DNA of 20,998 bases from a virus: the IMG/VR virus record IMGVR_UViG_3300031841_004135, positions 1-20,998 of that record. One strand, written 5' to 3'. Below, in pieces: positions 4,204-19,349 of this stretch. The notes beneath the pieces were generated by a model. That model was not told the DNA's origin and searched no databases. It was given only the letters and a program-made list of their open reading frames with translations. The translations under genes and the position numbers were made by a program. Position 1 is the first letter of the stretch. Each line of letters starts with the position of its first letter.

Positions 4204-5070
4204 ATGTTAGTAAAACATTCAAAATTTAAAAATACTGGTATCTTATTTGAACTACTAGTTAGACAAATAACTTCTGATACACTAAAAGGAAAAGAATCTA
4301 AAGCAATTGGGATGTTAAAAAAACATTTCCTAAATACGTCATTAGGTAAAGAATATAAGTTATATGAAACTTTAGTTAGTCAAAAACAACCTTTAACTGA
4401 GTCTAAAGCTAATATACTTTTAAGTACTATTCTTGAAAACTACCAAAAAATATCTAGATCTGCTACTAGAAAAGCAAAATACTCTTTAATTAAGGAAATT
4501 AAAGAAAATTATAATACTAATCATTTCTTTAAAACTAGAGTTAGAAATTATAAAACATTAGCATCAATTTTTACTTTATTTGAAGCTTATAGTAGCAAAA
4601 CACCAACTGATCCTAACCAAATAGTAGATAATAAAGTTACCTTACTAGAAGGTCTTACTAAACAACCAATTAATGAACAGGATGTTAAAGATGATGTTTT
4701 AAAAGAATTAGAAAATAGTGATAAAGATGTTAGATTATTAACTTACAGAGTATTATTAGAAAAATTTAATACAAAATATGATGATTTATCTTCCAATCAG
4801 AAAAAAGTATTACAAGAATTTATTACTTCAGTAGATTCAACATCTAAATTAAAAGATTTCTACAACGTTAAGATAAATGAAATAAAGTCTATATTAGATA
4901 TTGAAAATAAAAAAGTAAAGAGTAAACCTACTCAAATCAAAATCGATGAAGTTGCTAAACTATTAAATGAGTTAGATAAAAATGATAAGGTAAGTGATGA
5001 CAATTTAGTTGACTTACTACAATATTATCAATTAACAGAGGAAATAGTTAAAGCAAATGTCAAAGTTTAA
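4204..5070 (+). CDS. Conserved phage protein of unknown function, probable prohead-core component
   Basis: 288 aa, mostly helical, rich in Lys and Leu, with no signal peptide or membrane segment. The N-terminal half (HSKFKNTGILFELLVRQI, then HFFKTRVRNYKTLASIFTLF at about 101-120) reads like a conserved globular domain that I associate with T4-like marine phages, where it sits beside the portal gene; I cannot name a function. The C-terminal half has helical, coiled-coil-like stretches. It begins the block between portal and protease, where T4 has the small prohead-core genes 67 and 68, so a role in the prohead core is inferred from position. It contains LLEG and LTES, which fit the LxE cleavage preference known for T4 gp21. 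Its 3' end overlaps the next gene by 14 bases. Confidence 0.7.
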   Translation: MLVKHSKFKNTGILFELLVRQITSDTLKGKESKAIGMLKKHFLNTSLGKEYKLYETLVSQKQPLTESKANILLSTILENYQKISRSATRKAKYSLIKEIKENYNTNHFFKTRVRNYKTLASIFTLFEAYSSKTPTDPNQIVDNKVTLLEGLTKQPINEQDVKDDVLKELENSDKDVRLLTYRVLLEKFNTKYDDLSSNQKKVLQEFITSVDSTSKLKDFYNVKINEIKSILDIENKKVKSKPTQIKIDEVAKLLNELDKNDKVSDDNLVDLLQYYQLTEEIVKANVKV

Positions 5071-5908
5071 ATACCAACTTACAGAACAAAAAACGGATAA
5101 ACGTTTTGAAAAAGGAGAAGTAGACGTAGAAGGCGGTGCTAAAACCACCGTTTCAGATGTTGACCCTCAAACTGGTACTGTAACTTTTGATGTAGAGTAT
5201 CTACCTGATTTTGAAAAATTATTTGATGATTTTGCTGCTGTTTTAAAATCTTCAAGAGATATAGCTAAAGAAACTAAAGAGGATCCTAAATTTGAAGAAT
5301 TTTTTGTTGAGATAAGAAAATTAAGAAATGAAGTTAGGACACATCTTAGAAATGAATACCCTAAAGAATACAGACAAATAAAAGATAAAGCTGGTTTAGC
5401 TGAAGTAGCTGTAACTAAGAAAGTAAAAGATTTAAGTGATGATGCTTTAAAATCATTAATAGCTAAAGTTTCTTCTGATAAATCAATTTCTGATGTGGGA
5501 AAATATTTAAAAGATAAATTAGATATAGACATTTCTGATAGTAAAGTAAAATCAGTATTAGATAAATCCTTACCTAAATTTGAGTCTTCTATGACTGGTG
5601 GTGGTGTTGCAGGTGCTTCATTTACACCTGGTGTTGGTGGTCAATATGCTACACCTTATGCCTTTAATAAAAATAAAAATGCAGATGGGACTGACAGAGA
5701 TATATTAACTAAAAAATATGGCTTTAAAATAGCTAAAAACCAAGTTACTGAAAATGATAATCCAGGTGCTACATTAGGTCCAGGTCCAAAAGCGGGAAAA
5801 GAAGGAGTAGAGGATAACTATTATGTAAAAGCCTTTGGGTTTAAACGAGTACCTAAAAAAATTAAAGGTTCAGGTTTAGAAGTTAAGCAACTCTGGAAAA
5901 AAAATTAA
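5057..5908 (+). CDS. Probable prohead-core protein carrying a capsid-protein-like maturation motif
   Basis: 283 aa. Residues about 50-172 are helical and highly charged, as expected of a core or scaffold protein. Residues 176-198 (ESSMTGGGVAG, then FTPGVGGQYA) match major capsid protein residues 60-82 (ESSLTGGGVAG, then FTAGVGGQWA) at 18 of 23 positions by eye. In the capsid protein this motif starts where T4 gp23 is cut by the prohead protease. A Gly/Asn/Lys-rich C-terminal part follows. The N-terminus MSKFKYQLTEQ resembles MAFKYKLKEQ of the next gene and contains LTE, a possible protease site. It overlaps the previous gene by 14 bases. The prohead-core role is inferred from position and the shared motif; no family name is offered. 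Confidence 0.7.
   Translation: MSKFKYQLTEQKTDKRFEKGEVDVEGGAKTTVSDVDPQTGTVTFDVEYLPDFEKLFDDFAAVLKSSRDIAKETKEDPKFEEFFVEIRKLRNEVRTHLRNEYPKEYRQIKDKAGLAEVAVTKKVKDLSDDALKSLIAKVSSDKSISDVGKYLKDKLDIDISDSKVKSVLDKSLPKFESSMTGGGVAGASFTPGVGGQYATPYAFNKNKNADGTDRDILTKKYGFKIAKNQVTENDNPGATLGPGPKAGKEGVEDNYYVKAFGFKRVPKKIKGSGLEVKQLWKKN
5582..5650 (+). other. Copy of the major-capsid-protein cleavage-region motif
   Basis: Codons 176-198 of the core-like gene give ESSMTGGGVAG...FTPGVGGQYA. The matching stretch in the capsid gene is 10257-10325. Nucleotides differ at many third positions while the amino acids are kept, so the likeness is held at protein level and does not look like a recent DNA copy. Confidence 0.8.
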
Positions 5909-5918
5909 TATTTATAAT
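5908..5918 (+). promoter_or_regulatory. ATATTTATAAT junction motif
   Basis: It starts on the last base of the preceding stop codon and ends only 2 bases before the ATG at 5921. If this were a promoter -10 element on this strand, transcription would begin inside the gene. This copy therefore argues against a simple sense-promoter reading and leaves a translation, RNA-processing or opposite-strand role open. Confidence 0.35.
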
Positions 5919-5920
5919 AA

Positions 5921-6169
5921 ATGGCATTCAAGTATAAGCTTAAAGAACAAGACAAAAACGAGAAAGTCAAAGAATTTCATAATAAAAGAATTAAATCTTT
6001 TGATGAAATTGAAGCTCAATTAAAAGGTTTAGAACCTTTACTTAAAAGAGCAAAAATAGATACTATTAAACACTATAGAGAGAATCCTGATTCTTTTGGT
6101 GTTGTTTATGGTACTGATATTATAAATGATTATATAAAAGATATTAAAACATTACTAACGCAGGAATAA
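5921..6169 (+). CDS. Small charged helical protein, possible prohead-core component
   Basis: 82 aa, no recognised family. It is predicted to be helical and strongly charged (Lys, Glu, Asp), with no membrane segment. The N-terminus MAFKYKLKEQ resembles MSKFKYQLTEQ of the preceding gene and has LKE at residues 7-9, fitting the LxE rule of T4-type prohead proteases. T4 has two small internal core proteins (gp67 and gp68) in this gene interval, so this could be a functional counterpart; that is inference from position and composition. Its stop codon shares one base with the next start (TAATG), suggesting translational coupling. Confidence 0.65.
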   Translation: MAFKYKLKEQDKNEKVKEFHNKRIKSFDEIEAQLKGLEPLLKRAKIDTIKHYRENPDSFGVVYGTDIINDYIKDIKTLLTQE

Positions 6170-7509
6170 TGAAAACATTACAAAACCAATATAAACTTTT
6201 AAAAGAAGGAAAGGGTCAAAAAGACGTATTCTTAAAGGAGGCAAAAAGATTGTATCCTAACTTAATTACAAACCAAGCTGATTTCAATGAAACTGAAACT
6301 ATTCTTAAACAAAAAGGATTACTTAATGAACATCTTATTGGTTCAGTAGTGGGAACTCCTGCAATTAACACTTTTGAACCTAAAAAAGAAGCATCTTACG
6401 AAACCGCTTTTAAAAACTTTTTACAAGAAGAAGCAAAAGCTGAAGAGAAAAAAGTAACTAAAGAAGTAGAACAATTAGAAACTAAAGGATTTGATTATAA
6501 AAATAAAAAAAACATTGACAACCTAAATGGTCAGGAATTTATGGTTGGTGTTTATTATGAAGCAAGTAACAACCCAAAACTTTCTTTAGATGAAATTAAA
6601 GATAAAGTAGCTAAAAATTTATCTAAAGACGAATTATATTATGTTAAAGAAGGTCAATTTGGGGTTAATGTTGGATACCAAACAGATGTACCTGGTTTAG
6701 GTGAAACTAAAGAGGTAAAAGGTAAATATGCTTCAAGTGGTATGGAAGTTGTTAAAGAAGGAAGAATTTTAGAAAAAGGAAAAGTTAGAGAAAAAGTTAG
6801 ATCTATTATAAAAGAACACATGTTAGGTATTGTTTCTACCCCTTCTATCACTCCAGTACCTTCATTTAAAGATATGTTAGGTTTTCCTGTTAATGAAGAA
6901 GCAATAAATGATGCTGTTTACAATGAAGGAAAACATGATGATGATAAGGAAAAAAGAGAATTACCTGATTCAATTAGAAGAGCTGAAGAAGATCAAATAA
7001 GAAAAGATGCTAGAAAAGCTAGAGGTGATATTAAAGAAGAAGATTTAGATGAAGCAAAAGGTAAAGATTTAGATGGAGACGGAGACGTTGATTCAGATGA
7101 TTACATGGCAGCTAAAGATGCAGCTATAAAAAAGGCTAAATCTGAGAAAAAACCTAAAAATGAAAATATTTCATTAGAGAAAAAATTAAAGGAAATTGAA
7201 AAAGCTTCTACTATTATTGCTATGGAAGCTAAAATTGCTGCTTTAGAAGAAGAAATTTCATCTAGAACTGGAAAGATAGATGAAGTTGAAGCTAATGAGG
7301 CAATTTCAGAATTTGTAAACCCAGCTAAAATCAAATCTATGCAAAAAGAGATTAGATTGCTTGAAAAACAAATTAATAAATTTAAAAAGGTTTATGAAAG
7401 ACAAGCTGGTAAAGAATATGTTTCAGAAATGGATGCTGTGTCTTGGAAATTAAAAAACGGTATGAGCGTTGATTATGATCCTAAGAAAGTAGGCCAAAAT
7501 AACTTTTAA
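6169..7509 (+). CDS. Probable prohead-core/scaffold protein with an EF-hand loop
   Basis: 446 aa, very charged and largely helical. Visible parts: an N-terminal segment with LKE sites (QYKLLKEGKG, residues 8-17, and FLKEAKRL); NEHLIGSVVGTPAI (53-66), echoed by KEHMLGIVSTPSI (215-227); a moderately ordered middle (GQEFMVGVYYEASNNPKLSL, about 121-140); a canonical EF-hand calcium loop DLDGDGDVDSDD at 300-311 with acidic residues at loop positions 1, 3, 5 and 12 and Gly at 6; and a C-terminal coiled coil at about 335-425. It lies directly before the protease gene (2 bases apart) and is coupled to the upstream small gene by a TAATG overlap. The position fits T4 core proteins 67/68 but it is far longer. 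I do not recognise a named family; an internal scaffold role is inferred. Confidence 0.7.
   Translation: MKTLQNQYKLLKEGKGQKDVFLKEAKRLYPNLITNQADFNETETILKQKGLLNEHLIGSVVGTPAINTFEPKKEASYETAFKNFLQEEAKAEEKKVTKEVEQLETKGFDYKNKKNIDNLNGQEFMVGVYYEASNNPKLSLDEIKDKVAKNLSKDELYYVKEGQFGVNVGYQTDVPGLGETKEVKGKYASSGMEVVKEGRILEKGKVREKVRSIIKEHMLGIVSTPSITPVPSFKDMLGFPVNEEAINDAVYNEGKHDDDKEKRELPDSIRRAEEDQIRKDARKARGDIKEEDLDEAKGKDLDGDGDVDSDDYMAAKDAAIKKAKSEKKPKNENISLEKKLKEIEKASTIIAMEAKIAALEEEISSRTGKIDEVEANEAISEFVNPAKIKSMQKEIRLLEKQINKFKKVYERQAGKEYVSEMDAVSWKLKNGMSVDYDPKKVGQNNF
7066..7101 (+). other. EF-hand calcium-binding loop coding segment
   Basis: It encodes DLDGDGDVDSDD followed by YMAAKDAAI. The 12-residue loop follows the EF-hand pattern (acidic at 1, 3, 5, 12; Gly at 6; Val at 8). 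Only one loop is visible, so it is closer to the single loops seen in dockerin-like and extracellular calcium proteins than to paired calmodulin hands. Confidence 0.7.
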
Positions 7510-7511
7510 TA

Positions 7512-8126
7512 ATGTCAAAATTACTGATTGAAACCCAAATATTTGAAGGAGGTTTCAAAAAACCTCTTAATGAAGGATTTAAACCGTCTTCCAATGGTAA
7601 TCCATTAGTTGAAGGTATAATGGCAACTGTTGAGGTTAAAAACGGTAATGGTAGATATTATAAAAGAGACATTTGGGAAAGAGAGATGGGTAAATACCAG
7701 GAATCAATTGACCAAAATAGAGCTTTAGGGGAATTAGATCATCCTGAATCAACAGTAATAAATTTAAAAAATGCCTCTCATAATGTAAAAAGATTATATT
7801 GGGATGGTGATCATATAATGGGTGAAGTGGAAATTTTACCTACACCTTCAGGAAATATCCTAAAAACATTACTTGAAAATGGTATTACTATGGGAGTTTC
7901 TTCACGTGGGATGGGTTCATTGCAACCTATGGGAGAGGGAATGATGGAGGTTCAAGATGATTTCGAGTTATTATGTTGGGATTTTGTTTCAACCCCTTCT
8001 AATCCTGGTTCTTACATGGCTCCCATAATGGAAGGACTAAGTAAAAATCAATACGATAATTATCAAAAAGTAAATAACGTTCTATACGAAATTCTTTGTT
8101 CAAAAGGCACTTGCCCAATAATATAA
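7512..8126 (+). CDS. 21: Prohead maturation protease (T4 gp21-like)
   Basis: 204 aa (T4 gp21 is 212). This serine protease is built into the prohead core and, once the shell is complete, cuts scaffold, core and capsid precursors after LxE-type sites. The catalytic signature is clear: GELDHPE with His77, then VINLKNASH, then NGITMGVSSRGMGSL with the nucleophile Ser at 130 or 131, and CWDFVSTPS with Asp157 as a possible third member. The N-terminus has several possible self-cleavage sites (LLIE, LNEG, LVEG). It starts 2 bases after the upstream core gene and is followed 2 bases later by a small beta-rich gene, so the block is probably one operon. Confidence 0.93.
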   Translation: MSKLLIETQIFEGGFKKPLNEGFKPSSNGNPLVEGIMATVEVKNGNGRYYKRDIWEREMGKYQESIDQNRALGELDHPESTVINLKNASHNVKRLYWDGDHIMGEVEILPTPSGNILKTLLENGITMGVSSRGMGSLQPMGEGMMEVQDDFELLCWDFVSTPSNPGSYMAPIMEGLSKNQYDNYQKVNNVLYEILCSKGTCPII

Positions 8127-8128
8127 TT

Positions 8129-8485
8129 ATGGCAAGTTACACAGCAGCACAGTTAAGAGGAGCAGGAACACCAATAGAAGCATTAACAGGTGGAGTTTCA
8201 TATGTTATAACACTAAGTAGACCTGTTTGTTCTGGTTCAGCTTATTTCACAATGGAAACTAAAAAAAATGCTTCATATAATTATGAAGGTCAACCTACTA
8301 ATGCATTAGGTTCTTATGCTTCATTTTCAGATATTGACGCAGGCACATTAGTTACATCATCATACATTGCTTCAGTTGTTATACCTACTGGTGGAGGTAT
8401 ATTTCAATTTACCCCAAATGCTACAGTGGCTGTTAGCTCTTCCTTTTTAAGAACAACTGGTGGAGTTTCTGCATCTATAGCTTAA
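8129..8485 (+). CDS. Small beta-rich protein of unknown function, possible capsid decoration or minor structural protein
   Basis: 118 aa from the ATG at 8129 (MASYTAAQLRGAGTPIEAL). The frame could be extended to a TTG at 8096, but that overlaps the protease end and the ATG two bases after the protease stop is better. The sequence is rich in Ser, Thr, Gly, Ala and Val with alternating hydrophobic residues, suggesting a compact beta sandwich. There is no signal peptide or membrane segment. No family is recognised. Its place between protease and scaffold genes suggests a virion protein. The style (LVTSSYIASVVIPTGGG, then ATVAVSSSFL) resembles the 141-aa protein at 11805, which also flanks the scaffold-capsid pair. 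Confidence 0.65.
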   Translation: MASYTAAQLRGAGTPIEALTGGVSYVITLSRPVCSGSAYFTMETKKNASYNYEGQPTNALGSYASFSDIDAGTLVTSSYIASVVIPTGGGIFQFTPNATVAVSSSFLRTTGGVSASIA

Positions 8486-8522
8486 TGTCTTTATAACTAC
8501 CCATATACGTATAACCATCAAT

Positions 8523-8554
8523 ATGCTATACTAGTTTACTAGTTTATATAGCAT
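8523..8554 (+). repeat. Inverted repeat (hairpin) ATGCTATA / TATAGCAT
   Basis: The outer arms ATGCTATA and TATAGCAT pair perfectly, and the inner arms CTAGT and ACTAG pair across a TT loop. An extra TTTA bulges on the 3' side. The 3' arm and flank (TATAGCATCAAATT) reappear with one mismatch at 11741-11754, just after the capsid gene. Confidence 0.6.
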
Positions 8555-8576
8555 CAAATTATGTATAATTCCAAAT

Positions 8577-8596
8577 TACGATTCTTAATAATCGTA
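8577..8596 (+). repeat. Inverted repeat (hairpin) TACGATT / AATCGTA
   Basis: Perfect 7-base arms surround a 6-base CTTAAT loop. It ends 23 bases before the scaffold start, so it would sit in that gene's 5' untranslated leader if transcription starts near the TATAAT at 8564-8569. Confidence 0.55.
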
Positions 8597-8619
8597 CTTC
8601 CAAAAAACAATTTAGGATA

Positions 8620-10053
8620 ATGAATAGAGAACTTCTAAAAGAAGCAATCGCAGACGCAAAGGCTGTCAAGGAAACTGCTATAGCGAATGCAAAAGCTGCT
8701 CTTGAAGAATCTTTCACTCCACATCTTAAATCTATGATCGCTGCTAAACTTTCTGAAATGGACAAAGAAGAAATGGAAGAAGGTAAGCACGAAAAAGATG
8801 AAATGGATGAGGGTTACGGAAAAAACTATGGCGAGGACAAAATGGACGAAGCTAAAGAAAAAGACGAAATGAAAGAAGATCAAGAAGTAGCAGAAGCAAA
8901 GGAAGAAGAAGTTAAGGAAGAGAAAGAAGCTGCTGATATAGACAGAGAAGTTGACGCTATCAGAGATGACGCAGATCAGATTTCTAAACTAGCAAAAGAT
9001 GCTGGTGAAGATGCTGGTGACATCAAAGATAAAGTCAAAGACGATAGAGCTATTGACGCAGTTAGAGACGACTTGGATCAAATTTCTAAACTTGCTAAAG
9101 ATGTTGGGCAGGATGCTAAAACAAACAAAGTAAGTGAAGAAAAAGAAGAAGTTGACGAAGAACTCGACCTTGATGAAATTCTTGCTGAGTTGGAGGAAGA
9201 AAAAGATTCTGACAAAGATAAGATGGAAGAAAAAATGTCAAACCCAATCATGAGAAAGGGACTAAAAGGCGATAATAAAGCTGAATTAGAAACTGAAAAA
9301 ATGAGAAAAATGAAAGAGGGTGAAGATATCGAAGAAGACGAATCACGTGCCGAAAGAGCTGACGTAGACAAATATGAATACGAAAAAGGTAAAGAAGCAG
9401 GTGAGGATGATGACGATATGGATATAGACATTGATCTAGACAACTTAACTGAGGATGATCTTAAAGCCTTCATAGAGGACGTTATCGAAGATATGGTTAA
9501 CACTGGTGAAATTGAAGCTGGTGAGAACTTCGAAGATGACGTTGACGTCGAAGTAGAAGAAGAGGATACAGAGGAGATTGAAATCGACGAAGCAAAAGAT
9601 GAGGACGTATTAAAAGCTATTACTTCTGAAGAAAAGAAAGAAGAAATGGACGAAGCTAAAAAAGAGGAAATGGATGAAGCTAAGCACGATAAAGAAGATA
9701 TGAAAGAAGATCTTGATGAAGCTTATTCAACTATTAAAACTTTAAAAGGTGAGTTAAATGAAATCAATTTATTGAATTCAAAACTTTTATATACTAACAA
9801 AATCTTTAAAGCTAAAAATTTAACTGAAGCTCAAAAGGTAAAAGTACTAGGTGCTTTTGACAAAGCTTCAAGCGTTAAAGAAGCAAAATTAATCTACGAA
9901 ACATTACAGGCTGGTGTTGCTAATAAAAAAGCATCAGTAAATGCAGTTAGAGGAAGGGCTTCTAAAGCGATACAACCAGTTGAACAGAAACAACCAATTG
10001 TTGAATCTGATCAAATGGTAGCAAGATTTAAGAAACTTGCTGGTTTAATTTAA
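8620..10053 (+). CDS. 22: Prohead core scaffold protein (T4 gp22-like)
   Basis: 477 aa. This is the main internal scaffold, which shapes the prohead and is degraded by the protease before packaging. The long middle (about residues 45-370) is low-complexity and extremely acidic, with repeated MDEAK and KEEMDE blocks and long Glu/Asp runs. The C-terminal 100 residues are the conserved part: LNEINLLNSKLLYTNKIF (from about 378), LTEAQKVKVLGAFDKA, VKEAKLIYETL, ending DQMVARFKKLAGLI. T4 gp22 is only 269 aa, so the acidic middle is greatly expanded. It contains a 34-residue tandem duplication. IVES near the C-terminus and many other LxE/IxE sites fit destruction by the protease. It lies 26 bases before the capsid gene, as gene 22 precedes 23 in T4. 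Confidence 0.9.
   Translation: MNRELLKEAIADAKAVKETAIANAKAALEESFTPHLKSMIAAKLSEMDKEEMEEGKHEKDEMDEGYGKNYGEDKMDEAKEKDEMKEDQEVAEAKEEEVKEEKEAADIDREVDAIRDDADQISKLAKDAGEDAGDIKDKVKDDRAIDAVRDDLDQISKLAKDVGQDAKTNKVSEEKEEVDEELDLDEILAELEEEKDSDKDKMEEKMSNPIMRKGLKGDNKAELETEKMRKMKEGEDIEEDESRAERADVDKYEYEKGKEAGEDDDDMDIDIDLDNLTEDDLKAFIEDVIEDMVNTGEIEAGENFEDDVDVEVEEEDTEEIEIDEAKDEDVLKAITSEEKKEEMDEAKKEEMDEAKHDKEDMKEDLDEAYSTIKTLKGELNEINLLNSKLLYTNKIFKAKNLTEAQKVKVLGAFDKASSVKEAKLIYETLQAGVANKKASVNAVRGRASKAIQPVEQKQPIVESDQMVARFKKLAGLI
8953..9120 (+). repeat. Tandem coding duplication (102-base unit) in the scaffold gene
   Basis: The units start at 8953 and 9055. They encode DAIRDDADQISKLAKDAGED and DAVRDDLDQISKLAKDVGQD, 102 bases (34 residues) apart; the second copy is partial. 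The nucleotide sequences have drifted at third positions, so the duplication is not recent. Confidence 0.75.
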
Positions 10054-10079
10054 TTTTAACTATATAATTTTTTAATAAA

Positions 10080-11732
10080 ATGTCAAACATTGATCAACTA
10101 TTAGAATCAGCTAATCCTTGGCAGTCACAGCAATCTGATGCTGCAAGATTAGCGAGAAAATGGGATAAGACAGGATTATTAGAAGGAATAGAAAATGAAA
10201 CTGATAAAAACAACATGTCTGTTATCTTGGAAAACCAAGCTAAGCAGCTAGTTGTTGAATCTTCACTAACTGGTGGAGGTGTAGCTGGTGGTACTTTTAC
10301 TGCTGGTGTTGGTGGACAGTGGGCAGGTGTTGCTCTACCGTTGGTAAGAAAAATCTTTGGACAAATTGCTTCAAAAGATTTCGTTTCTGTACAACCAATG
10401 AACTTACCATCAGGTCTAGTTTTCTACTTAGAGTTCCAATACGGAACTAACAAAGTTCCTTTTGATCAAGGTCAATCCCTTTATGGTAACTCTGGATCAG
10501 CTTATAACCCATTTGGTAATAACGCTGCAGGAGGACTATATGGTGCTGGAAGATACCAGTACTCAATCAATCAAACTTCATCTAACGCTGCAACTGTAAC
10601 TTCATCAGCTACATGGTCAGATTTAGATTTTGATTCTACTTATTCAGCTTCAGCTGTTGCTAATGAGTGGATAAAAGTTGATATCTCAGGTTCACAACTG
10701 GCGTACAAAGACACTAAAGGTGTTAGAGCGTTCAGAATCTCAGGTTCAGCTTTATTAGGTGGAGATGCTCTTTCTACTGGAGAGAACTTCCCACAATGGA
10801 CTAAGTACAATGAGGCAGCAGATGTTGTAACTTTCATCATCTCAGCTTCTGATGCAGGAACTATTGGTTCAGCTGCTGGTGCTGATGTTTACTATCAGTT
10901 ACAACCAACTGATAACAGAAGAGGTGATTTCGAGGATGGTAACACAACTCTTAACGGAGGTAACAACCCAATCTCAATCCCTGAAATTAATGTACAAATG
11001 AGAAGTTCAGCTATCGTAGCTAAAACTAGAAAATTAAAAGCAGTATGGACTCCTGAGTTCGCTCAAGATCTTAATGCTTACCATTCTCTAGATGCTGAAG
11101 CTGAGTTAACTTCTATCATGAGTGAATACGTTTCTCTAGAAATCGACTTAGAGATATTAGATATGATTATGCAAGTTGCTCCATTAAGCGACGTATGGTC
11201 AGCTAATAATAACGAGGCTTTCACTTCTACTACTGGAGACGGTACTACAACTGACCTTGGGTTCTATAATTCACAAGGACAGTGGTTCCAAACTTTGGGA
11301 ACTAAGTTACAAAAATTAAGTAACCAAATTCACCAAAGAACTCTTAGAGGAGGTGCTAACTTCTTAGTATGTTCACCTACAGTAGCTACTATCATTGAAT
11401 CAATCCCAGGATTTGCTTCAAACTCTGATGGTGACGCTGCTAAAATGCAATATGCATTTGGTGTACAGAAAGCAGGTCAATTGAATAGCAGATACAACGT
11501 ATACAAAAACCCTTACATGTTGGAAAACAGAATTCTCTTAGGATTTAGAGGATCTCAATTCCTAGAAAGTGGTGCTGTATTCGCTCCGTATATTCCATTG
11601 ATAATGACTCCTCTAGTATATGATCCAAGTACTTTCACTCCAAGAAAAGGATTGTTAACTAGATATGCTAAAAAAGTCGTAAGACCTGAATTCTATGCAA
11701 CATTAGATATTTCTGGTTTAAACACTTTATAA
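10080..11732 (+). CDS. 23: Major capsid protein (T4 gp23-like)
   Basis: 550 aa (T4 gp23 is 521). It forms the hexamers of the shell in the HK97 fold. The N-terminal part (ARKWDKTGLLEGI, VILENQAKQLVVE) is the propeptide. By alignment with T4, cleavage is expected after Glu60, before SSLTGGGVAGG. The mature part begins with the motif shared with the core-like gene at 5057 and continues with ALPLVRKIFGQIASKDFVSV and QPMNLPSGLVFYLEFQYGT (from about 102), all typical of this family. SRKLKA-like AKTRKLKAVWTPEFAQDL, LDAEAELTSIMSEYVSLEID and the C-terminal GLLTRYAKKVVRPEFYA also match. Codon use is richer in C-ending codons (AAC, TTC, TAC, GAC) than in most neighbours, as expected of a very highly expressed gene. 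A strong terminator follows. Confidence 0.96.
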   Translation: MSNIDQLLESANPWQSQQSDAARLARKWDKTGLLEGIENETDKNNMSVILENQAKQLVVESSLTGGGVAGGTFTAGVGGQWAGVALPLVRKIFGQIASKDFVSVQPMNLPSGLVFYLEFQYGTNKVPFDQGQSLYGNSGSAYNPFGNNAAGGLYGAGRYQYSINQTSSNAATVTSSATWSDLDFDSTYSASAVANEWIKVDISGSQLAYKDTKGVRAFRISGSALLGGDALSTGENFPQWTKYNEAADVVTFIISASDAGTIGSAAGADVYYQLQPTDNRRGDFEDGNTTLNGGNNPISIPEINVQMRSSAIVAKTRKLKAVWTPEFAQDLNAYHSLDAEAELTSIMSEYVSLEIDLEILDMIMQVAPLSDVWSANNNEAFTSTTGDGTTTDLGFYNSQGQWFQTLGTKLQKLSNQIHQRTLRGGANFLVCSPTVATIIESIPGFASNSDGDAAKMQYAFGVQKAGQLNSRYNVYKNPYMLENRILLGFRGSQFLESGAVFAPYIPLIMTPLVYDPSTFTPRKGLLTRYAKKVVRPEFYATLDISGLNTL

Positions 11733-14993: not shown

Positions 14994-17900
14994 ATGGCCA
15001 ACGTACGATTTATAGATTCTATTAAAGTTGGAGGTTATTCAGTAACTGGAGACGGAACAGGACCTCAAGGACCTGCTGGTCCTGCAGGTTCATCAGGAAC
15101 CTCAGGTTCATCAGGTACATCAGGCTCAAGTTCCACTGCTGGTTCAGCTGGAACTTCAGGTGGAGCTGGTCCACAGGGTAATGTAGGTCCAATTGGACCT
15201 CAAGGTCCTAGTGGTACTTCAGGTACCTCAGGTAAAACAGGTACTTCAGCCCAAGGAGGTACTTCAGGACAATCAGCCACTTCAGCAACTGATGGGACTT
15301 CAGGAACTTCTGGTCAAAGTGGTTCCACTGGTACTTCTGGTTCAAGTGGTGGAGGTTTAGGAACTTCAGGTACAGGTGGTACAGCTGGTAGTAGTGGTGG
15401 TGGTGGTTCAAAAGGTACTTCTGGTTCTTCAGATACTTCTGGTTCAACTGGAACCTCTGGAACTTCAGCTGACTCAGGTTCTGCAGGTACTGCTGGTTCT
15501 TCTGGTACAACTGGTACAGGTGGTACTTCAGGAGGTAGTCCTATAGGAACAGCTGGTTCTTCAGGTACGTCAGGAACCTCTGGTGTTTCTGGTGAAGCTG
15601 GTTCATCCGGAACTTCAGGATCTAGTGGCCAATCAGGTTCTTCAGGAACTCAAGCAACTTCAGGAATTTCAGGCTCCACTGGTAGTTCAGGTATAAGTAG
15701 AACTGGTGGTACCTCAGCTACTTCTGGTTCAAGTGGCTCTTCAGGTACAAATGGTTCATCTGGTGGTAATGGAACTTCAGGAACAACTGGTAGTTCAGCT
15801 TCAGCTGGTTCATCAGGAACTACAGGTACTTCAGCTTCTTCCGGAACTAGTGGAACTTCAGGAAATGCAGGTTCAACTGGTGTTTCAGGTTCAAGTGGTA
15901 TTTCAGCTACAACTGGAACAAGTGGTACCTCAGGTGATAGTGGAGAAACAGGTGCTGATGGTACTTCAGGTGAGGCAGGAACTTCAGGAACTACTGGTAC
16001 TGCAGGTACTTCAGGTGGTGGTGCAGCTGGTTCTTCTGGAACTTCAGGAACAGGTGGAACTTCAGGAACTTCAGGAAATATAGGTAGTAGTGGTGATGCA
16101 GGATCAGGTGGTACTTCAGGTACATCTGGTATTTCAGGGTCTGCTGGTACAGCAGGTTCAAGTGCTGCTTCAGCTTCTTCAGGTGAAGCAGGTACTAGTG
16201 GCTCAAGTGGTTCAAGTGGTTCACAAGGTTCATCAGGTACCAATGCTGTTTCAAATAACAGTGCATCTTCAGGAACTTCAGGTTCTGCAGGATCTTCAGG
16301 ATCAAATGGTACAGCAGGTCAAAGTGGTAATGCAGCTACCTCGGGAGAGAGTGGTGGAGCTACCGCAGGTACTTCAGGTACTGGTGGAACAGCTGGTATA
16401 AGTACTGATGCAGCTACTTCAGGAACTTCTTCAACGGCTGGAACTTCTGGTACAGAAGGTACAAGTGGTATAGGTCAAGGTTCTGGTTTATCTTCTACTG
16501 GTGGAACTTCAGGAACAACTGGAACTGGTGGTTCATCTGGTGCAGGTGGTTCAACAGGAACTTCAGGAACTTCAGGTCAAAGTGGATCTTCTTCCACAAG
16601 TGGTACATCAGCTACTGCAGGTTCAAAGGGAGTTAGTGCTGAAGCTGGTACTAGTGGTACAGCTTCAACTGCTGGTTCAACAGGTACAGTTGGAACTTCA
16701 GGACAAAGTGCAGCTACAGGTTCTTCAGGTTCAAGTGCCACAGCAGGATCTTCAGGTTCTTCTGGTACAACTGGTACTTCAGGTTTAGCAAGACAATCAG
16801 GTGCTTCAGGTTCATCAGGTTCTTCAGCAACTACAGGAACTGCGGGTACAACAGGAAATTCAGGAACTTCAGGTGGTGGTGCTGCAGAAGGTTCTTCAGG
16901 AACTGCAGGTACAGGTGGTACTTCAGGTACTTCAGGTGGTGCTGGTACTTCTGGTACTGGTGGAACAAGTGGTGCTGCAGGTTCTTCAGGTATTAATAGT
17001 GAAGCAGGAACTAGTGGTTCATCAGGTTCTGATGGAACTTCAGGAGAAGCTGGTACAGAGGGAACTTCAGGTGTAAGTATTGAAAGTGGTTCATCAGGTA
17101 CTTCAGGTTCAAGTGGAACTAATGGAACATCTGGTGTTAACTCTACTTCAGGATTAAATGGTAGCTCTGGTACTTCGGCTACTTCAGGTACAAATGCAAC
17201 TTCAGGTAATGCAGGTTCTTCAGGTTCTTCTGGAACTAGTGCTACAGCGGGTACTTCAGGAAATTCAAGTTCTAGTGGTTCAGCTGGTTCTTCAGGTACA
17301 TCAGGTACTTCTGGTGATATAGGATCTTCAGGTGCTAGTGGATCAACAGGTACTAGTGCAACTTCAGGAAATAATGGTTCTTCAGGAGCTAATGGTAGTT
17401 CAGGTTCTTCAGCAACTTCTGGAACTAATGGTAGTTCAGGTTTAGTTGCTACTTCTGGTGGTGCAGGTTCAAGTGCTACTTCAGGTTCTACTGGTACTTC
17501 TGGTACAGCAGGAAATAATGGAGAATCTAACAATTCAGGTTCAAGTGGTTCTTCAGGATCAAGTGGTACCAATGCAACCTCAGGTAATGCTGGTAGTTCA
17601 GGTGGAAGTAACTCAGCCGGTAGTTCTGGTACAACTGGTACAGCAGGAACTTCAGGTGGAGGAGATGGTGCTAGTTCAGCGGGTTCTTCAGGAACAGGTG
17701 GTACAGCAGGAACTTCAGGAGGAGCAGGTTCTTCAGGAGCAAGTGCTTTATCAGGTTCTAGTGGTTCTACAGGAACGTCAGGTACTTCAGGAGCAGGCGG
17801 TGATAACGGTGCTTCAGGAACTTCAGCTGTTTCAGGTTCATCGGGTACAGATGGTTCATCAGGAACTTCAGCCGCTAATGGAAGTGCTGGAACTTCAGCT

Positions 17901-19349
17901 GCTTCAAATTCTTCAGGTACTTCTGGTACATCAGGATCTTCAGCTTCAACTGGAACTTCAGGAACTGCTGGTAACAACGCCTTATCCAGACAAAGTAAAA
18001 CTTCAGGAACCTCTGGTTCATCAGGAACTTCAGGTACTGCAGGAGCAAATGGTTCAAGTGCAGGTGCAGGTTCTAGTGGAACTTCAGCTACTACAGGAAC
18101 TTCTGGAACGGCAGGAGCTAGTGGTCAAAGTAACTTAGCAGGTTCATCAGGAACTTCAGCTACTGCTGGAACAACAGGTACCAATGGAACTAAAGGTCAA
18201 TCTGCAAATGCAGGTACCTCAGCAACCTCTGGAACAGCAGGTTCATCAGGTCAAAGTAATGGAAGTGGTTCCTCAGGAACTTCTGGAACAAATGGTACCA
18301 CTGGAGCAACAGGAAATAATGCTCAAAGTGGTGGTTCAGGTTCATCAGGTTCTACTGGTACAACAGGAACTACTGGAGCTGCCGGAAATAATGGTCAAAG
18401 TAACAATTCAGGTTCAAGTGGTTCAGCAGGAACTGGTGGAACAAATGGTACAAGTGGTGGCCATGCAACTTCTGGTTCAAGTTTTGCAGCTGGTTCAGAT
18501 GGTACATCAGGTACTGGTGGTACAGATGGTACTTCAGGTGGTCACGCAACTTCAGGAGCTGCTGCTTCAAGTGGTTCTTCTGGAAGTGCAGGAACTGGTG
18601 GAACAACAGGTGCTGGTGGTGCTTCAGGTTTATCAAGAACAAGTGGAACAGCAGGGTCTACTGGTACAACTGGAACTACTGGACAAGGTGGTGGTGGAGG
18701 CGGTAGCGGTGAATCAGGAACCAATGGTACCTCAGGAACTGCAGGTATAAGTGGAAATGTTGGAACTAATGGAACTTATGTAAATATAACCGCTGGGACA
18801 GGTTTAGATGGTGGTGGTCAATTAAACACAGATAGAACCATAACATTGGATTTAACAGAAGTAATTACCAGTGATGCAGCTAATAGAATATTAACCTCAG
18901 ATGGTGATGGAACTTTAACAGCAGAATCAATAGGTATTAACTCAGGTGCTTTATTATTTAATAATAACGCCAATGAAGCAGCTAACATGCAATATGTTTT
19001 CTCCGCTGCTTTAGTGGGATCTGGAACATTTACAGTAGATACCTGGACATTTGCTGATTATAATGGTGTATTTTACATTTATTCACTTTATGTGGCAGCA
19101 GATCCTTCAACAACAACAAGAACAGGAACCATAAAAATTGCATACGGTGATGATGGTGGTTCAGCAGATTTTACAATCTCAGATGTTTCAACTGCAACAG
19201 CTGGTTCATCAACTAGAGCAGGAGATCCAGTATTTAGTGTGGATACTAGTGGAACAGATGGTAGATTAAGGGCTACTAAAACCGTTCCTGGAAACCAGGT
19301 ATTTAACGCCTTAAGAATTTTAATCCCAGATGCTACGGCAATAACTTAA
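14994..19349 (+). CDS. Giant Ser/Thr-rich Gly-X-Y repeat (collagen-like) fibre protein
   Basis: 1451 aa in three parts. Residues 1-22 (MANVRFIDSIKVGGYSVTGD) are a short non-repeat head. Residues 23 to about 1260 are Gly-X-Y triplets, roughly 412 of them. The first few are Pro-rich (GPQGPAGPAG, GPIGPQGPSG), and the rest are overwhelmingly GTS, GSS, GTA, GNA and the like, with almost no Pro. Residues about 1260-1451 form a non-repeat beta-rich domain starting YVNITAGTGLDGGGQLNTDR, a turn-rich motif often seen in phage tail fibres, and probably act as trimer-forming or receptor-binding tip. Four phase slips and several Gly replacements occur in the repeats. It lies 1 base after the gp15-like gene. 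A tail or neck fibre used for host binding is inferred; no enzymatic motif is seen. Confidence 0.8.
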   Translation: MANVRFIDSIKVGGYSVTGDGTGPQGPAGPAGSSGTSGSSGTSGSSSTAGSAGTSGGAGPQGNVGPIGPQGPSGTSGTSGKTGTSAQGGTSGQSATSATDGTSGTSGQSGSTGTSGSSGGGLGTSGTGGTAGSSGGGGSKGTSGSSDTSGSTGTSGTSADSGSAGTAGSSGTTGTGGTSGGSPIGTAGSSGTSGTSGVSGEAGSSGTSGSSGQSGSSGTQATSGISGSTGSSGISRTGGTSATSGSSGSSGTNGSSGGNGTSGTTGSSASAGSSGTTGTSASSGTSGTSGNAGSTGVSGSSGISATTGTSGTSGDSGETGADGTSGEAGTSGTTGTAGTSGGGAAGSSGTSGTGGTSGTSGNIGSSGDAGSGGTSGTSGISGSAGTAGSSAASASSGEAGTSGSSGSSGSQGSSGTNAVSNNSASSGTSGSAGSSGSNGTAGQSGNAATSGESGGATAGTSGTGGTAGISTDAATSGTSSTAGTSGTEGTSGIGQGSGLSSTGGTSGTTGTGGSSGAGGSTGTSGTSGQSGSSSTSGTSATAGSKGVSAEAGTSGTASTAGSTGTVGTSGQSAATGSSGSSATAGSSGSSGTTGTSGLARQSGASGSSGSSATTGTAGTTGNSGTSGGGAAEGSSGTAGTGGTSGTSGGAGTSGTGGTSGAAGSSGINSEAGTSGSSGSDGTSGEAGTEGTSGVSIESGSSGTSGSSGTNGTSGVNSTSGLNGSSGTSATSGTNATSGNAGSSGSSGTSATAGTSGNSSSSGSAGSSGTSGTSGDIGSSGASGSTGTSATSGNNGSSGANGSSGSSATSGTNGSSGLVATSGGAGSSATSGSTGTSGTAGNNGESNNSGSSGSSGSSGTNATSGNAGSSGGSNSAGSSGTTGTAGTSGGGDGASSAGSSGTGGTAGTSGGAGSSGASALSGSSGSTGTSGTSGAGGDNGASGTSAVSGSSGTDGSSGTSAANGSAGTSAASNSSGTSGTSGSSASTGTSGTAGNNALSRQSKTSGTSGSSGTSGTAGANGSSAGAGSSGTSATTGTSGTAGASGQSNLAGSSGTSATAGTTGTNGTKGQSANAGTSATSGTAGSSGQSNGSGSSGTSGTNGTTGATGNNAQSGGSGSSGSTGTTGTTGAAGNNGQSNNSGSSGSAGTGGTNGTSGGHATSGSSFAAGSDGTSGTGGTDGTSGGHATSGAAASSGSSGSAGTGGTTGAGGASGLSRTSGTAGSTGTTGTTGQGGGGGGSGESGTNGTSGTAGISGNVGTNGTYVNITAGTGLDGGGQLNTDRTITLDLTEVITSDAANRILTSDGDGTLTAESIGINSGALLFNNNANEAANMQYVFSAALVGSGTFTVDTWTFADYNGVFYIYSLYVAADPSTTTRTGTIKIAYGDDGGSADFTISDVSTATAGSSTRAGDPVFSVDTSGTDGRLRATKTVPGNQVFNALRILIPDATAIT
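15060..18770 (+). repeat. Ser/Thr-dominated Gly-X-Y triplet repeat region
   Basis: About 3.7 kb of 9-base-periodic coding repeats. Codons for Ser (TCA, TCT, AGT), Thr, Gly and Ala vary freely, so the repeat is kept at protein level and is not fresh DNA expansion. A larger module beginning GTSGGG with AA, AAE or DGA next recurs at about 16008, 16866 and 17649 (858 and 783 bases apart). Confidence 0.9.

Follow-up and report, generated by a model that had tools for sequence, protein, structure and literature searches.

A core-slot protein of T4-like phages carries a motif resembling the predicted N-fist of the same phage's capsid protein

In phage T4, cleavage of the major capsid protein gp23 after residue 65 leaves residues 66–91 as the N-fist (PMC7136217), which interacts with subunits of its own and of the adjacent capsomer (PMC7136217; PMC9958956). 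N-fists that face the portal are disordered (PMC7136217). The cleaved protein, gp23*, has a disordered N-terminal region while inside the prohead, and this region becomes ordered only upon expansion (PMC9958956). The proteases of T4 and related phages cleave after Glu, with a reported motif of xxE before the cut (PMC5694885); the site of T4 itself reads FLTE/AEIGG in the sequence record, where the slash, here and below, marks the cut. The T4 proteins gp67 and gp68 are degraded to small peptides, and neither the structure of the T4 scaffolding core nor the way in which its proteins touch the shell is described as resolved (PMC9958956).

The DNA analyzed here, referred to in the following as the window, has 20,998 bases and covers the whole of an IMG/VR virus fragment. 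It contains the head region of a T4-like myophage, with genes in the order large terminase, gp20-like portal, a 288-aa product (p288), the core-slot ORF, an 82-aa product (p82), a 446-aa product (p446), a gp21-like protease, a small ORF, a gp22-like acidic scaffold and the gp23 capsid protein. The ORF at 5057–5908 is called core-type by virtue of its gene position only; like the genes for T4 gp67 and gp68, it lies between the portal gene and the protease gene. The gp22-like label of the scaffold is provisional and reflects its position, its acidity and its homology to scaffolds of the clade. Judged by capsid protein identity, the closest named phages are Immutovirus of Flavobacterium (55%) and, at 51%, one whose record bears the label Microcystis phage Mel-JY01. 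The following features of the window are used below:

5057–5908, + strand: core-slot protein, 283 aa, from the ORF list, between the portal-side p288 and p82
5057–5584, + strand: core segment before the putative cut, residues 1–176, characterized from AlphaFold2 and the short homologues
5582–5650, + strand: core Glu176 plus the N-fist-like motif ESSMTGGGVAGASFTPGVGGQYA, from translation and alignment
5645–5665, + strand: YATPYAF, core-specific end of the motif, residues 197–203, missing from the capsid protein
5585–5905, + strand: predicted mature C-terminal core fragment, 107 aa, net charge +9, deduced from the putative cut site
6169–7509, + strand: p446, encoded in the head region, with unrelated sequence after a conserved [IL]xE site
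7512–8126, + strand: gp21-like prohead protease (Peptidase_S77, E 7e-28; PHROG head maturation protease, 9e-56)
10080–10259, + strand: putative capsid propeptide, residues 1–60, ending LVVE, its Glu60 unchanged across 40 aligned capsid proteins
10257–10325, + strand: capsid Glu60 plus the putative N-fist ESSLTGGGVAGGTFTAGVGGQWA, from profile alignment to T4 gp23
10080–11732, + strand: major capsid protein, gp23 family, 550 aa (Pfam Gp23 PF07068, E 7e-75; PHROG 138)

Outside the head genes, positions 14994–19349 encode a 1451-aa protein in which TSG/SSGTSG repeats make up most of the chain and the C-terminal end is non-repetitive; it is probably a fibre of the tail or neck. Two ORFs at 61–351 and 224–652 overlap in different frames, one predicting a coiled coil and the other a hydrophobic N-terminus, and are spanin-like; the pair is also kept in relatives (for example, L006, 2179–2562 and 2435–2848). 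In p446, the [IL]xE site lies near residue 54 (LLNE/HLIGSVVGTP) and is accompanied by a second similar stretch, KEHMLGIVSTP; p446 may therefore also be a substrate of the protease, one in which motifs are repeated.

Translation confirmed a match that the initial annotation had reported between the core and capsid proteins: core residues 176–198 (bases 5582–5650) and capsid residues 60–82 (bases 10257–10325) are identical at 18 of 23 positions, whereas the best ungapped 23-mer reached at most 10 of 23 in 150 whole-protein shuffles and 150 shuffles that kept local composition in 25-residue blocks. Low-complexity chance was ruled out by the block shuffles. At the nucleotide level the two stretches agree at 52 of 69 positions. 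The same codon is used at 9 of the 18 identical residues, and codon usage predicts 8.9, so there is no trace of recent DNA copying; recent gene conversion was ruled out by these counts. The likeness is, judged from the codons, one at the protein level, as the initial annotation had argued from codon differences. When own-phage pairs from 23 long-form phages (see below) were pooled, 178 of 341 identical residues used the same codon, with 163.6 expected. After the shared stretch the two proteins part, the core continuing from QYA into TPYAF and the capsid protein from QWA into GVALP.

When a profile of 40 capsid proteins was aligned with the solved T4 gp23, Trp81 of the capsid protein fell on Ile91, the last residue of the N-fist; the aligned domain was weak (i-Evalue 0.009), but ran without gaps into the clearly similar VRR...VQPMN block. 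Because the T4 N-fist spans residues 66–91, the shared motif most likely consists of the cut Glu and the N-fist, with the similarity starting at the putative cut site and stopping at the end of the T4 N-fist. AlphaFold modelled the capsid protein too poorly (pLDDT 57) for the N-fist to be placed. As in T4 gp23*, the capsid copy sits at the homologous place directly after the cut Glu and has a similar length; unlike in T4 and seven distant phages, where no clear second version was seen, another protein in this clade carries one. These were T4, P-RSM6, XacN1, Molly_1, pf16, phiN3, Milchi and RM378, and no clear second copy was found in their ORFs near the capsid gene (the best T4 neighbour ORF scored 40, against a shuffle maximum of 39). 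A motif pair as a general feature of T4-like phages was ruled out by these eight.

Within the clade, a search of 12 contigs, including ones of 163 and 166 kb, detected the core copy in each and the capsid copy in nine, with no further copies; in the other three, an insert in the capsid copy kept the model from detecting it. A scan of loci likewise gave no extra copies in the neighbourhood of the capsid gene. Capsid N-fists with an additional SQTAVN-type insert (L031, L035, L040, L043, L062 and others) mostly pair with short-form cores, L048 being the exception. Each of five long contigs has a single gene of the gp23/gp24 family, and no gp24-like vertex paralogue was found in these contigs, which may be incomplete.

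In nearly all relatives, the residues before both Glu follow the [VIL]xE pattern of cleavage sites. The P3 residue was Val, Leu or Ile at 160 of 160 unique capsid sites, and Val, Ile, Leu or Met at 104 of 106 unique core sites, counting a few xxEE sites one residue earlier, against a background of 26% for other Glu of the core proteins. The core site of the window, LPKFE, is one of the two exceptions. Cleavage after both core Glu176 and capsid Glu60 is, on this sequence pattern, quite probable. The initial annotation had proposed that the core protein is cut or docked by the machinery that handles the shell protein, or mimics the capsid N-arm to time maturation. This proposal is partly supported: it gains from the [VIL]xE sites in nearly all relatives, from the alignment to the T4 N-fist and from the within-phage matching described below, and loses from the K-F-E of the window's own core, which breaks the [VIL]xE rule.

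The first capsid-protein searches of viral contigs gave 80 loci, later extended to 262 in total, including named phages; the group is a large one of T4-like viruses that count known Flavobacterium phages among their relatives. A slot ORF with E...YxTPxAF or a recognizable variant was present in all 186 loci that had both p288 and the protease, 158 by the strict pattern and 28 by inspection; its motif is of a long or a short form or is left as a degenerate remnant. The expectation that the motif would be conserved beside gp21-like genes was thus borne out in the syntenic slot next to the protease gene. The ORF itself ranges from 73 to 605 residues, with an N-terminal domain that has been gained and lost, and only Met1, Glu176, Tyr197, Thr199, Ala202 and Phe203 are invariant in an alignment of 36 core sequences. 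The YxTPxAF end is retained in a large majority of homologues, including ones that lack the capsid-like middle.

Among 118 unique loci, the long form, with the full capsid-like segment (e.g., EMSTTGGGAGSASFTPGTGMQYATPYAF), was found in 63 and the short form (EMSTSGGAGAYNTPYAF), in which only ExSx[ST]G(G/A) plus one aromatic residue is left, in 55. Homologues lacking the motif had been named as evidence against the proposal, and the outcome was divided: many are short-form (ESTSGGAGAYxTPYAF), and a few retain just E...YxTPxAF. The capsid-like part is lost in several members (L087, L089, L241, L247 and L263), the cores of L087 and L089 retaining just E...YNTPYAF, and in the short-form L011, L062 and L040 direct similarity to the own capsid protein was not significant. 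On the capsid tree the two forms switch about 8–9 times, at least four of them forced, with L085 counted as short in one switch count because the pattern matched YFTP. The cores of Immutovirus, Mel-JY01 and the 484-kb phage LR756508 are all short-form, and the short form may therefore be ancestral.

The isolate homologue in Flavobacterium phage vB_FspM_immuto_3-5A, immuto35A_198, is a 73-residue hypothetical protein that occupies the same slot and reads VLEE/MSTTGAVGGYLTKNAF; unlike the window core, it is of the short form and resembles the N-fist of its own capsid protein, ANVTGVNAIGAAGGGSEQWA, to a limited extent. LR756508, a huge uncultured phage, has a 170-aa protein downstream of its p288 homologue with ALNE/ISQTGNVAGYQTPFAF; it differs in being short-form and in that the slot is distant from the capsid gene. 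Loci L003 and L271 (LR756508.1, at 147–156 kb and near the capsid gene at 172 kb) have many small ORFs with an amphipathic N-terminus (e.g., MKISEQRVRNIIRKELKSL and MKIQEQKLRGIIKEEIKKIVNE), which resemble a capsid-targeting peptide family. In three further loci, the p82 equivalent is fused to the core protein (L064, 5650–6147; L076, 4617–5123; L077, 5157–5678).

AlphaFold2 predicted a folded N-terminal domain (pLDDT mostly 80–94 at residues 21–110) and helices before the putative cut of the window core, followed by a disordered linker at residues 176–211 (pLDDT < 50) between the folded domain and the tail. The core protein had no credible match in Pfam, PHROGs, PDB sequence or PDB fold searches, and a BFVD search returned unnamed viral proteins only. 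Neither a tblastn search of phage records with the bare motif or the window core nor a literature search with the motif string found anything. Unlike its gene position, its sequence showed no link to T4 gp67 or gp68 in the Pfam and PHROG family searches, and a discrete C-terminal fragment is predicted here, unlike the small peptides of the T4 proteins. In many homologues, the segment before the putative cut has shrunk to a helix of 10–20 residues ending xxE directly before the motif (e.g., MDKLKEIIRKRLKE), similar to T4 IPI–III, whose capsid-targeting sequences are of about this length (PMC9958956). The window core has a 176-residue segment instead of this short xxE-ending peptide. In a further difference from IPI–III, the predicted mature core chain would start with an N-fist mimic, a start not reported for the IPs in the T4 head literature cited here.

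The core copy tracks the capsid copy of its own phage in the long-form half of the family. In 144 unique loci, the score of the capsid N-fist was 42.4 with the slot of the same phage and 32.7 with the slots of other phages, the highest of 20,000 permutations being 35.4; the scoring scanned the whole slot, with no preselection of the core motif. After thinning to less than 70% capsid identity, which left 8 genomes of the first set (with L085 again counted as short), the effect persisted at 1 in 20,000. Tree-independent long-form pairs (n = 26) gave p = 0.0008 in a sign-flip test and 0.013 in a sign test. For pairs of all forms (n = 58) the sign-flip p was 0.0015, and a plain sign test, with 26 up and 21 down, was not significant (p = 0.28). 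Common descent reduces how many of these lineages are independent.

The strongest cases are phages in which both copies have been replaced jointly: TNTIASNSSFTSGGQGENW in the capsid protein and ISSIASNSFFTSGGEGENH in the core of L200, TNTIATNSSFTSGTEGENWA and INSISSNSSFNSGTEGENYA, respectively, in L202, and QSSTQTGGDAFAGGVGAQWA and QSSTATGGDAFAGGEGAQYA in L264. The two copies match even where the motif has been replaced completely, with IASNSxFTSGGxGEN in both proteins. The residue preceding the Trp or Tyr is Gln or Asn in step, with 26 QQ, 15 NN and 14 mixed pairs (Fisher p = 0.0006, uncorrected for kinship). This within-phage matching favours mimicry rather than coincidence and suggests, from sequence, that both copies fit one socket in the virus shell.

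Several other explanations could be considered. The motif might simply be a long stretch that the prohead protease recognizes, so that the core and capsid copies shift together with the taste of the enzyme; in its favour, the likeness sets in at the putative cut Glu, and [VIL]xE describes both sites. However, almost all of the likeness, about 22 residues, lies after the cut, whereas the reported motifs are xxE before it (PMC5694885). We used p446, itself a predicted substrate only, as a control for protease specificity: its conserved [IL]xE is followed by unrelated sequence (LLNE/HLIGSVV), and in the IASNS...GEN replacement clade its site mostly remains ILSE/GxGG. Because the likeness is post-cut and p446 mostly does not follow the replacement clade, we consider a recognition site unlikely. 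Alternatively, the uncut loop might act in the prohead before cleavage, as a scaffold contact or timer that attaches the core to the propeptide or N-arm region of the capsid protein, to the portal or to the protease. The motif lies in the predicted disordered linker and assembly needs core–shell contacts (PMC9958956), but the match begins at the cut site, and an N-fist mimic would make most sense after the cut, since the N-terminal region of gp23* orders only upon expansion (PMC9958956). An action of the uncut loop thus also seems rather improbable.

The repeated switching between long and short forms, and the fact that the own copies are the best matches, would fit a capsid-gene fragment copied into the core gene by recombination, perhaps repeatedly, with no role in binding. 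The shared residues nevertheless have independent codons, also in the pooled pairs, and the motif is held at one place within an otherwise fast-changing protein, which leaves such copying only a slim chance. Chance or convergence of a Gly/Ser/Thr-rich sequence is hardly credible: the segment is rich in Gly, but shuffles of the same local composition fell far short of the match, the residues follow an ordered pattern (ExSxTGGG..F.xGxGxQ[YW]A), and the copies are coupled within each phage.

The explanation that we prefer is that the 5057–5908 product would be a prohead-core protein that is cut by the capsid's protease and whose freed N-terminus mimics the N-fist and docks; taken as a whole, we hold this with middling confidence. 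The gp21-like protease would probably cleave the core after Glu176, as it would the capsid protein after Glu60, and the new N-terminus, SSMTGGG...GGQYA, would imitate the freed N-terminus of the capsid protein. This mimic could settle into N-fist sites of the capsid lattice during or after head expansion, for which the chances, going by the sequences, appear about even, and would thereby tether the basic C-terminal core fragment to the shell. The most plausible sites would be unfilled ones beside the portal or the five-fold vertices, a guess made because the portal-facing N-fists of T4 have no partners, and the vertex location itself is doubtful.

For T4-like phages of this clade, the finding would mean, as a tentative and not especially likely proposal, that a second protein released by the protease plugs the N-fist sockets that the lattice cannot fill, at the portal or five-fold vertices, coevolving with the capsid protein of its own phage; such sockets are proposed here for phages in which no gp24 vertex paralogue was found. 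Docking by the core mimic would account for the persistence of one short motif in an unannotated, fast-evolving gene family, and a core copy of the post-cleavage N-terminus that is matched to the capsid names a short peptide contact that would be directly testable.
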